A DNA stretch of 64,000 nucleotides from Prochlorococcus sp. AG-418-G23 (GTDB lineage: Bacteria > Cyanobacteriota > Cyanobacteriia > PCC-6307 > Cyanobiaceae): the NCBI GenBank assembly GCA_003214195.1, contig QCLY01000001.1, positions 1 through 64,000 on the forward strand, in the 5' to 3' direction. The notes beneath the pieces were generated by a model, which saw only the letters and a list, made by a program, of their open reading frames with translations, had not been told where the DNA came from and ran no database searches. The translations under genes and the position numbers were made by a program. Positions within the stretch are counted from its first letter, which is position 1. Each line of letters begins with the position of its first letter. This document shows positions 6,464 through 12,377 of this stretch, one piece after another.

Positions 6464-6973
6464 ATGAAGAAATTAAATTCTTTTATTTTGAATAACACTG
6501 TCAAATTCTTGGACTTCATATACTACGGTAGATCTTTACAAAGATTTTGGGTTTTAGAAGTAATAGCTAGATCACCTTATTTTGCATTTCTTTCAGTTCT
6601 TCATTTTAAAGAATCCTTAGGGATTAAAAATGAAAAAACAATGATTTTAATGAAAGAACATTTTTATCAAGCTGTTAACGAAACTGAGCATCTTAAAGAA
6701 ATGGAGAAAAGAGGAGGAGATAGGTTCTGGATTGATAGATTCTTTGCGAGACACCTTGTGCTTGTTTACTACTGGATCATGGTTTTTTATTATTTCTTCT
6801 CTCCAGCTAATGCATATGATATCAACATAAAAATTGAAGAACATGCATTTGAAACTTATTCCAAATATTTAAACGACAATCCAAATGATCAAAAAATAAA
6901 AGAAATCGCTCAAGATGAATTAAATCATGTCCAAGAACTTAACGAAGCTTTGTCAATGCTTACTAAAGTTTAG
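6464..6973 (+). CDS. alternative oxidase / plastoquinol terminal oxidase (PTOX)-type di-iron oxidase
   Basis: NETEHLKEM, EEHAFETYSKYL and DELNHVQELNEAL carry the Glu/His di-iron ligand pattern of AOX/PTOX. Confidence 0.85.
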   Translation: MKKLNSFILNNTVKFLDFIYYGRSLQRFWVLEVIARSPYFAFLSVLHFKESLGIKNEKTMILMKEHFYQAVNETEHLKEMEKRGGDRFWIDRFFARHLVLVYYWIMVFYYFFSPANAYDINIKIEEHAFETYSKYLNDNPNDQKIKEIAQDELNHVQELNEALSMLTKV

Positions 6974-9023: not shown

Positions 9024-9125
9024 TTATCTCAAGTAACTAGACCCTCTATATGTAAGCTTTACTGTTTTCTCTTCTTGTTTCTTACAATATACAAATGACT
9101 TGCCATTAAAATACATGTTAACCAT
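9024..9125 (-). CDS. small DUF4278-like protein (33 aa)
   Basis: MVNMYFNGKSFVYCKKQEEKTVKLTYRGSSYLR*; LTYRGxxY is the DUF4278-type motif; manual translation. Confidence 0.5.
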   Translation of the reverse strand: MVNMYFNGKSFVYCKKQEEKTVKLTYRGSSYLR

Positions 9126-9144
9126 AATGCAGTTCCTAAAAATG

Positions 9145-9230
9145 CTCAAGTCCCCGTCCTATGACTTGAGTCGTACTGCGGTCTATCAGGTGGTAGATCG
9201 GACGATTATGTAGTGTTTACTACAATTTAT
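9145..9230 (+). ncRNA. candidate structured small RNA (strand uncertain)
   Basis: Perfect 8-bp inverted repeat CTCAAGTC (9145-9152)/GACTTGAG (9163-9170); second hairpin-like segment 9171-9205; TGTAGT-GTTT-ACTACA hairpin (9209-9224) followed by ATTTATTT; locally more GC-rich than its surroundings. Confidence 0.4.
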
Positions 9231-9408: not shown

Positions 9409-9715
9409 TATTAGTTATCCAATATAAACTTCAACTGAGTTTCTGCACTTATAATATCGATTCTTCTTTGAAATGATTTCAACAATTTAATTATTTTTTT
9501 CAAAATCAAACCTTTTTTATTCTTGATAATAATATTATTTGTATAGTAAATTTATCAATGAGCAAAAATACTGACTCTGTTGATATAACTAAACTCTTGT
9601 AACGTAAATATACAATAATTAGCTAAAATTATATACTTAAAATTTTCTCTTAGTTTGCTTCACTTGTCATATTTCAAGGTAAGATTTTAATGGTGTTTCT
9701 TTGGAAGAGTTTCAC

Positions 9716-10100: not shown

Positions 10101-10311
10101 TTGATTTTTTCTAGCAAATTGGTATCTCTTTCAACCAAAACTTAAAAAGTTTTTTAACTAATAAATAGGAGGCATTTTGTTTTTGGAATTTGAATCGTAT
10201 GCACCTTATATTTACTATCCACAAAATTTTTGAAGTAATTAAAATTCCTACATTATTTCTTCACTTTATGAATAAAACCAGATAGTGATAAATACAATAA
10301 AGTATTTATAA

Positions 10312-10323
10312 GGTATTAATACC
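10312..10323. promoter_or_regulatory. perfect 12-bp palindrome GGTATTAATACC upstream of the CP12-like ORF
   Basis: Sequence 10312-10323 is self-complementary and lies 15-20 nt upstream of the Shine-Dalgarno. Confidence 0.35.
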
Positions 10324-10357
10324 CTATGAATTTAAATTAGAAAGGAGGATAATAAAA

Positions 10358-10546
10358 ATGTTAGAGATTAAAGGAGGTTTTATGAAACTCACTACTCCAT
10401 TCACCGCTCTTAAAAACGCTACTTCAGATATTTGGAAAATGCATGATTTCAATTATGAATTGCCCAAAAAAGATGAAAAAGAATATTGGAATCAAGAATG
10501 CATAACTCATCCTACCAATAGTCATTGTAAGATTTATTGCGATTAA
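10358..10546 (+). CDS. truncated CP12-like small protein
   Basis: C-terminal KEYWNQECITHPTNSHCKIYCD has the CP12 C-terminal C-x8-C-(R/K)-x-Y pattern; strong SD at 10341-10348 and again at 10371-10377 before an in-frame ATG at 10382. Confidence 0.6.
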   Translation: MLEIKGGFMKLTTPFTALKNATSDIWKMHDFNYELPKKDEKEYWNQECITHPTNSHCKIYCD

Positions 10547-10632
10547 TATTTATCTTTTTTAGGTATTCTTACGCTTGATTTTTATATATCATCCGTACTA
10601 AATCATACGTAAATAGAAAGGAGGACAAACAA

Positions 10633-10734
10633 ATGACTAATTTAATTATAGAAATTCTATTTTGGGCAATTTTAATTTCTTACATAGGATTAAGATTTTC
10701 TCAAACTTGGGATGGCTACAAAAAACAGTATTAA
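10633..10734 (+). CDS. small membrane protein (33 aa)
   Basis: MTNLIIEILFWAILISYIGLRFSQTWDGYKKQY*; preceded by AAAGGAGG at 10617-10624. Confidence 0.55.
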   Translation: MTNLIIEILFWAILISYIGLRFSQTWDGYKKQY

Positions 10735-10746
10735 TTAGGAGGAAAG

Positions 10747-10836
10747 ATTAAACTTCAAGAACATTTCACAGTTCCAAACGAAGATCTTAGAGATCTAGAT
10801 TATGTAAAAATTAAAAGTCCTAGAAGAAACTTTTAA
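10747..10836 (+). CDS. tentative 29 aa ORF with ATT start
   Basis: AGGAGG at 10737-10742 then ATT AAA CTT..., IKLQEHFTVPNEDLRDLDYVKIKSPRRNF*; no ATG in the frame. Confidence 0.3.
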   Translation: MKLQEHFTVPNEDLRDLDYVKIKSPRRNF

Positions 10837-10963
10837 GAAAGAATATCAAGATTAACCAACGAAAGAAGATGCTTTAGTTCGTAGTAACTGAAGATTCATT
10901 AATCTTTTTTCAAAGCTTCCATATTCTAAAAGATACCTAAATGTATTTAATGAGAGGTGATTT

Positions 10964-11482
10964 ATGAATTTAAGATTCTTACCAATAACTATTTTTCGAG
11001 AGACTCCAAAAGTCACATTCTTTGATGCAGGTTTGGATTCATCTAATGGTTGTGATGTGGTAATTCATTCTGAAGAGGCCATTTCGCCTCCAAATGAATT
11101 TAATGATGAACAATATTACTTACACAATCATCAAACTGATTACAACTTAGTTGTTACTGGAAAAAGAACATTTATTTTAATAAATCCTTCGTGGGATGAA
11201 CCCCATCATGAAATTTTTTTAAATAGATCTATGGGGGCACTAGAAATTCCTATTGGGACCTATCACAGATCAATCTCAGGGGAAGAAGGTAGTGTTGTTT
11301 TAAATCAACCAAAAAGAGATGCATTTTTTGATCCCGCTAAAGAATTTATACCTCAAAAATTAGACAGAAAAAATTTAGTTAAAGCAAGAAAGAGTCAACC
11401 CGTTTATTGGTTTTACGAAAACAATCAAATTAAAAGAGTTTGTTTGAATCCTCTAGAAAACAAAGTTAAAGCAATTTCTTGA
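10964..11482 (+). CDS. cupin-like conserved hypothetical protein
   Basis: 172 aa; YYLHNHQTDYNLVVTGKRTFILINPSWDEPHHEIFLN...ALEIPIGTYHRSISGEEGSVVLNQ cupin-like pattern. Confidence 0.55.
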   Translation: MNLRFLPITIFRETPKVTFFDAGLDSSNGCDVVIHSEEAISPPNEFNDEQYYLHNHQTDYNLVVTGKRTFILINPSWDEPHHEIFLNRSMGALEIPIGTYHRSISGEEGSVVLNQPKRDAFFDPAKEFIPQKLDRKNLVKARKSQPVYWFYENNQIKRVCLNPLENKVKAIS

Positions 11483-11483
11483 T

Positions 11484-12377
11484 ATGGATAAAACACAAAA
11501 AGATATTTTACATAAAACTAATGATTTACAGAATCTGAATTTGATTGTTAATTCTGATTCCTATAAATTGGCTCATGAAGATTTTAACTTGCTCGGCAGA
11601 AATGAAATGCGTGGGGTCAGAATGATGCTTGAAATTACTAAACCAGATTTAATTCTTGAAGAAAATAAAATCCATTCAACAATAATAATTTTTGGAGGTG
11701 CAAATATTTCAAAAAAATCAAAAACAATAGAAAAGATTAACGAAGTACAACAGTTAATTGATATAAATCCTTCATCCAAGTTACTTAAACGAAATCTGAA
11801 TAGATTAAAAAATTTACTATTGATGAGTCACTTCTATCGATCCGCCAAGGAGTTTTCTAAACTAGTTTCAATTAATAATCAAAACAATAACATTAATTCT
11901 CATGTGATCATGACAGGTGGTGGGCCAGGGATTATGGAAGCTGCTAATAGAGGAGCATTTGAAGCAAATTGCAAATCTATAGGGTTAAATATAAGTCTCC
12001 CAAATGAACAAATTCCAAATGCTTTCATAACTCCTGGTCTTTGCTTTAAATTCAATTATTTTGCATTAAGAAAAGTCCATTTCGTCATGAGAGCAATCGC
12101 AGCTGTATTCTTCCCTGGAGGTTTTGGAACACTTGACGAATTATTTGAACTGTTAACACTCTGTCAAACAGGCATGAAAAATAAAATTCCAATAATCCTA
12201 TTTGGAAGAGAATATTGGGATAAGGTAATTAACTTCAAATATCTAGCTGATCTTGGGTTAATTTCGGATGATCACTTAAATCTTTTTGAATATGCAGAAA
12301 CTCCCTTAGAGGCCTGGGAAATTATCAAATCATCAAATATATCAGATAAGAATATTAATGAAGAAAAAAAGAATTAG
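11484..12377 (+). CDS. LOG family protein (TIGR00730-like, nucleoside 5'-monophosphate phosphoribohydrolase fold)
   Basis: GGGPGIMEAANRGA and PGGFGTLDELFELLT signatures. Confidence 0.85.
   Translation: MDKTQKDILHKTNDLQNLNLIVNSDSYKLAHEDFNLLGRNEMRGVRMMLEITKPDLILEENKIHSTIIIFGGANISKKSKTIEKINEVQQLIDINPSSKLLKRNLNRLKNLLLMSHFYRSAKEFSKLVSINNQNNNINSHVIMTGGGPGIMEAANRGAFEANCKSIGLNISLPNEQIPNAFITPGLCFKFNYFALRKVHFVMRAIAAVFFPGGFGTLDELFELLTLCQTGMKNKIPIILFGREYWDKVINFKYLADLGLISDDHLNLFEYAETPLEAWEIIKSSNISDKNINEEKKN

Follow-up and report, generated by a model that had tools for sequence, protein, structure and literature searches.

A modular microprotein family with a CP12-like C-terminal tail in Prochlorococcus and T4-like cyanophages

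As analysed here, a small-gene cluster of Prochlorococcus sp. AG-418-G23 contains members of a modular family of microproteins, and the following is settled: the genes are real, conserved and under selection, they have strong ribosome-binding sites and leaders of their own, and copies of them exist in phages. The cluster lies in a window of 64 kb, that is, the whole stretch of DNA analysed (positions 1 to 64,000 of the forward strand of contig QCLY01000001.1), which belongs to a genome of 1.18 Mb that is 70% complete. Most members end in a tail laid out like the GAPDH-docking tail of CP12. On the basis of this resemblance, I consider it probable that the family represents stand-alone CP12-type tails that dock on GAPDH. 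A literature search found no paper describing the family, the subscription literature being outside its reach.

The original prediction held that five translated micro-genes, each with an unusually strong Shine-Dalgarno (SD) site, are clustered between positions 10300 and 10970 of the window. All five SD-like motifs were confirmed on the plus strand, and their roles were found to be diverse. The 9-nt SD match AAAGGAGGT (10370-10378) is the true ribosome-binding site of a 54-aa gene, designated class A, and is kept in relatives. The 8-nt match AAAGGAGG at 10617-10624 is the ribosome-binding site of a 33-aa gene, tm33. AGGAGG (10737-10742) is the old ribosome-binding site of a pseudogene belonging to class C, and GAGAGGTGA (10952-10960) is a purine-rich site ahead of a 172-aa frame starting at 10964. 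The first motif, another AAAGGAGG at 10341-10348, lies in the leader of the 54-aa gene and runs into GATAAT; it is read as part of a promoter, not as a ribosome-binding site. Thus, the count of five translated micro-genes was not upheld, as one of the starts is an artefact, one of the genes is no longer functional in this genome, and one product has 172 residues; the description of the products as tiny fits the 54-aa and 33-aa proteins and fails for the frame at 10964. What stood is a conserved set of co-oriented small genes with unusually strong ribosome-binding sites, whose order is kept in dozens of relatives.

Are such sites unusual for this genus? In a survey of the first start of each gene, limited to genes of at least 120 aa in a MED4-sized genome, an SD match of at least 6 nt was found for 2.0% of 306 genes (400 kb); the corresponding value for the 51 genes of the window is 7.8%. 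The matches of the 54-aa and 33-aa genes, 9 and 8 nt, are indeed exceptional against these values. For these two genes, neither SD sites of equal strength across the genome nor a loss of the reading frame in close relatives was found. It might still be argued that strong SD sites lie by chance near spurious frames that have no gene function. In line with this, AAGGAGG is not enriched in the 64-kb window (8 observed versus 7.3 expected), and one of the named starts and one of the named genes are non-functional in the window genome. Three of the eight copies fall on the same strand inside a stretch of 283 bases, and each precedes a frame. Purifying selection, the conserved gene order and the near-universal presence in the genus speak against chance, which is refuted for the 54-aa and 33-aa genes and is of negligible probability as a general explanation.

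The 54-aa frame (10382-10546, plus strand) ends in the CP12-like sequence C-ITH-P-TNSH-C-KIY-CD. Its start at 10382 was verified by alignment with ten relatives. In contrast, the other start proposed for this frame, an in-frame ATG at 10358 that would extend it by positions 10358-10381 (plus strand), has no counterpart in relatives and was judged not to be a real start. Among 63 class A leaders, that of the window is the only one to start here; in three others a start lies just six bases upstream, and a further leader has an upstream codon directly after a stop. Moreover, the ATG at 10358 would sit between the -10-like box and the expected transcription start site. The pN/pS of the 54-aa gene is 0.21. 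A single-chain structure prediction of the protein was of low confidence (pLDDT 59), and a Foldseek search with the model found no match.

It was also proposed that a 12-mer, TAGAAAGGAGGA, marks a duplicated leader. The 12-mer does occur exactly twice in the window, where 0.03 occurrences are expected and none of 100 shuffles reached two. The duplication was nevertheless rejected because relatives do not keep both copies identical; their two sites differ in those 12 letters. A leader that is truly shared, distinct from the 12-mer, recurs at other loci. The leader of the 54-aa gene (10300-10381, plus strand), as aligned with relatives, consists of the palindrome GGTATTAATACC (10312-10323, plus strand), which is designated module P1, followed by AAAGGAGG and then by the -10-like box GATAAT (10348-10353, plus strand). 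Class A and class D genes, found at different loci, have a common leader of about 90 nt in which a GTA-N4-TAC dyad, GA[TC]AAT and the ribosome-binding site follow one another in this order. Apart from one class D outlier, the dyad begins 67-75 nt before the start codon (mostly 69-70 in class A and 67 in class D), and GA[TC]AAT ends 24-32 nt before it (mostly 26-27 in class A and 24 in class D). Since GATAAT persists also in leaders that lack the AGGAGG upstream of it, the site at 10341 was read as promoter sequence, and the leader would act as a promoter.

Of 17 genomes, 16 have the P1 pattern, in one to five copies each; a reversed control had none. All but two of the P1 loci that were read precede an intact family gene, and both exceptions have no intact frame. 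A second module, P2, has 13 copies in 19 genomes, each ahead of a family gene. Class D and class F genes occur with either module; thus, P1 and P2 have been exchanged between paralogues. The confinement of the leader modules to the upstream regions of family genes suggests that the cluster is co-regulated. A DNA-level element is preferred because the folding of the leader RNAs is no better than that of shuffled sequences (z of 0.56, -0.94, and -0.72). No Rfam family was found at the cluster, and a generic promoter and terminator scan of it gave nothing informative.

A few other elements were recognised in the window. A Glutamine-II riboswitch (RF01704; 9145-9207, minus strand; 54.9 bits, E 1.5e-10) is located on the strand opposite to the cluster, at a distance of about 1.1 kb, and a short frame with an internal ATG that follows it (9024-9149) may encode its downstream peptide. 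The ATPC RNA motif (RF01067; 37403-37493, minus strand), a known family, lies in the ATP synthase operon. A 169-aa protein of the Alternative oxidase family (PF01786, PTOX-like) is encoded at 6464-6973 on the plus strand.

Downstream of the 54-aa gene, tm33 (10633-10734, plus strand) encodes a peptide of 33 residues that is a putative single-span membrane peptide, judging from its hydrophobic stretch alone. It is kept between a class A or B gene and a class C gene in dozens of loci, with a pN/pS of 0.31. The spacer between the 54-aa and 33-aa genes is conserved as well and includes GTATTCTTAC (10563-10572, plus strand), which has the same GTA-N4-TAC form as the leader dyad. The next gene in relatives is a class C gene of 48 aa, a paralogue of the class A gene, which is present in 106 of the 151 genomes of the genus and has a pN/pS of 0.42. 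The window copy (10737-10891, plus strand) aligns with it over residues 1-23 only. According to the alignment with ten relatives, it is a pseudogene because its ATG, two bases and the cysteines are gone. The ATT at 10747, which had been named as a start codon, is the mutated form of this ATG, and expression of an ATT-initiated frame was rejected, the frame being the decayed copy of a gene that many relatives keep intact.

The frame at 10964-11482 (plus strand) encodes a conserved 172-aa protein, cup172, which is cupin-like by its H-x-H and P-x-G-x2-H motifs and has a pN/pS of 0.21. A Pfam search with the window protein assigned no family (a WbuC cupin model gave an E value of 0.15, below the cut-off), a cup172 profile found no relative in the PDB, and the structure prediction had a pLDDT of 33. 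The last gene of the conserved order (11484-12377, plus strand) encodes a LOG-type protein (PF03641, E 5e-28). The order of a class A or B gene, tm33, a class C gene and cup172, often followed by the LOG gene, is repeated in dozens of loci. The A, tm33, C, and cup172 genes are all under purifying selection, their pN/pS values being below 1. One contig with the cyanobacterial cluster, PBXW01000127.1, is filed under a Crocinitomicaceae MAG, which is probably a binning error.

How widespread is the family of the 54-aa protein? It was found in 143 of 151 Prochlorococcus genomes, with three to eight matches per genome in 14 complete or nearly complete genomes. In the GTDB family to which the genus belongs, 33 of the 59 genera searched have members, mostly those with genomes of 2 Mb or less, and matches in the larger genomes are weak or absent. 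Classes A, B, C, D and some smaller ones have a common short N-terminus, MKLxTPF or variants of it (MKLxTPFTxL..), and this N-terminus is combined with different middle regions across the classes. The C-terminal end follows the pattern C-x3-P-x4-C-x-[IVL]-[YFC]-x-[DNEG] or stops at ..CKVY. Most members have this tail, and where present it is the most invariant part of the protein, with its C, P, and C residues unchanged throughout. Canonical CP12 was detected in 121 of the 151 genomes; therefore, the family genes are additional to CP12. It was not found in the window's own genome, which is 70% complete. At about 9438-9641 (minus strand) of a locus from a MED4-sized genome (L196; G015:C1:205001-225000), none of the start codons ATG, GTG and TTG occurs in the CP12 frame after the preceding stop, and a CTG lies near the start position of its relatives.

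CP12 is the known redox brake of the Calvin cycle; it is also known to be carried by cyanophages, which redirect the carbon metabolism of the host with it. When both of its cysteines are oxidised, the CP12 tail forms a hook that plugs the coenzyme pocket of GAPDH. The end of the family proteins, C-x3-P-x4-C-x-[IV]-Y-x-[DEN], is in the register of this tail. Three alignments of the family were turned into profiles, each of which was compared with all 177,635 distinct sequences of the PDB at E values up to 10, and the outcome was the same each time: exactly three sequences were matched, all of them CP12, aligned to the last residue. The best E values were 0.043, 0.13, and 0.098 for the three profiles, and the better matches were between 0.04 and 0.3. 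One of the three sequences, 3b1j, is the C-terminal region of CP12 (Matsumura et al.), which has been discussed together with GAPDH/CP12 complexes (PMC3906501). In the reverse direction, a profile of 29 cyanobacterial CP12 sequences, from which Prochlorococcus was left out, ranked four family members 1, 2, 5, and 6 among 2,533 ORFs, aligned on the tail, and a profile of the CP12 tail alone placed family members from about 12th to 100th. Among the 2,533 ORFs, C-x3-P-x4-C closes the sequence of just five, all of them family members. The ends of some members (CKIYDE, CKVYDD or CLVYDD) are CP12-like also beyond the second cysteine.

Taken singly, each match of the tail is weak. A profile-profile comparison (hhalign) gave a probability of 12%, and 2 of 300 column-permuted controls scored as well. 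The Pfam model of CP12 (PF02672) matched none of 20 members at E values up to 10. The AWD_VEE core is absent from all aligned members, and so is the N-terminal cysteine pair, which Prochlorococcus CP12 itself also lacks. The penultimate acidic residue of CP12 is a cysteine in most members, and the acidic end is missing in many strains, which stop at ..CKVY. The resemblance is specific but short, and it is therefore treated as a motif-level one, not as proof of common descent. By the defining features of the CP12 family, the proteins are not CP12; what they have is a CP12-like tail only. It is conceivable, and on balance rather unlikely, that the tail is a convergent redox or metal-binding motif with a target different from GAPDH, such as a photosystem, a relay of thiols and disulfides, or a complex formed with tm33 in the membrane. 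The modest statistics of the CP12 relationship, the missing acidic end in many members and the position of a membrane peptide between two tailed genes would agree with this, whereas the spacing, the extreme C-terminal place and the C-x-[IV]-Y-x-D end fit CP12 alone among solved structures.

Docking on GAPDH, the reading preferred here, has precedents in known systems. In oxidised CP12 or GapB, the acidic end of the tail lies in the active site of GAPDH, against the arginine for NADP use (PMC4436894). A CxxxPxxxxC end interacts with GAPDH in CP12, in A2B2-GAPDH (GapB) and in ADK3, and the Calvin cycle is reported to be shut off by a cyanophage protein that carries this kind of end (PMC9406205); the same motif stands at the extreme C-terminus of the otherwise unrelated proteins of this family. 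CP12 and the family proteins are both small, have a C-x3-P-x4-C-x2-Y-x-[DEN] tail in the same register at the very end, and occur in the host and in T4-like cyanophages, picocyanobacterial and cyanophage CP12 included. They differ in length (44-60 aa versus about 70-75 aa for CP12), in the MKLxTPF.. N-terminus of the family and its lack of the CP12 core and cysteine pair, and in its multiple copies with dedicated leaders, which coexist with canonical CP12 in most genomes. The C-terminal extension of GapB and the tail of ADK3 are likewise portable CP12-type tails on another body, and they are reported to act on GAPDH (PMC9406205, PMC4436894). These tails, however, are fused to enzymes, whereas the family carries the tail on a stand-alone microprotein. 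In Synechococcus elongatus, a second CP12-like protein, which increases in the dark, is reported to interact with both Gap2 and Prk (PMC11804935). This protein, Synpcc7942_0252, for which a CP12-like domain is reported, is likened to the family by its description; it differs in belonging to another organism and in having no reported phage copy.

The original prediction had pointed to cyanophages, and T4-like cyanophages were found to encode homologues of the 54-aa protein. P-TIM68, a phage of MIT9515, has a 51-aa homologue that is 67% identical and annotated as a hypothetical protein. Its gene lies directly after a heat-shock gene (hsp20) and has a AAGGAGGTG site, and the phage encodes a separate CP12 besides. 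A viral scan that used the host protein as query found no match; with the 52-aa form of host class A one locus was obtained, and with host class D none. An IMG/VR search with the P-TIM68 protein yielded 52 loci. Among the loci that were examined, nearly every one has the gene after hsp20 and before the polymerase gene in a T4-like order.

The common N-terminus, the small size, the several paralogues and the C-terminal cysteines are also what one would expect of RiPP precursors (peptide precursors of a modified natural product), in which the leader is conserved and the core bears cysteine. This is very improbable: the core is conserved, not variable, no modifying enzyme or exporter is recognisable within the conserved gene order (the cupin-like cup172 is among its genes), and the same gene lies among the replication genes of T4-like phages.

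Some members have no tail. Host class F retains the N-terminus and the leader of the family, and tail-less phage versions (L316, L318-L320 and, among isolates, P-SSM2) retain the N-terminus and the gene position. The P-SSM2 version is the short frame MKLTSPFSIIKNAISDLKRVPKEKKQKEKSVV (L324, 1501-1599), which overlaps the terminal part of the gene at the hsp20 position and has no gene call of its own. Since tail-less members exist in both host and phage, the tail is not the whole function. These members, together with an N-terminus common to classes with differing middles, would also suit the idea that the MKLxTPF module is the core of the protein, for example as a targeting or degradation adaptor that both host and phage use, and that the tail is an optional redox lock. 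With the tail carried by the majority of members and being their most invariant part, I regard this as a quite unlikely explanation.

The following mechanism is proposed for CP12-type tails docking on GAPDH. A short N-terminal module is present in every protein and is joined in most classes to a C-terminal tail on the CP12 tail plan. The tail would dock on Gap2 under oxidising or dark conditions, or in phage infection, and docking would slow or redirect the Calvin cycle, or else link Gap2 to a partner of the N-terminal module. In the host, expression would depend on the dedicated leader, one of the two interchangeable upstream modules, and the strong ribosome-binding site. I infer promoter function, disulfide formation, GAPDH binding and the effect of this binding from the comparisons above. 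A broader picture, which is tentative and falls a little short of an even chance, is that Prochlorococcus and T4-like cyanophages have a private, expandable set of microproteins in which the stand-alone CP12-type tail serves as an exchangeable plug or adaptor for GAPDH. The host would use leaders of two flavours for these genes, and the phage copy next to hsp20 would be a second switch of carbon metabolism beside CP12.

Nearly all Prochlorococcus genomes examined have several copies of the family, and ocean cyanophages have it too. The genes are small, the P-TIM68 copy being annotated as a hypothetical protein and the P-SSM2 relative having no gene call, and the strong ribosome-binding sites, rarely used in the genus, mark the family for expression studies. 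The family may be an extra control of carbon fixation common to host and virus. If this is true, the family would be a second class of CP12-tailed proteins and would give a phototroph that is abundant worldwide, as well as its infected cells, one more point at which carbon fixation is controlled.
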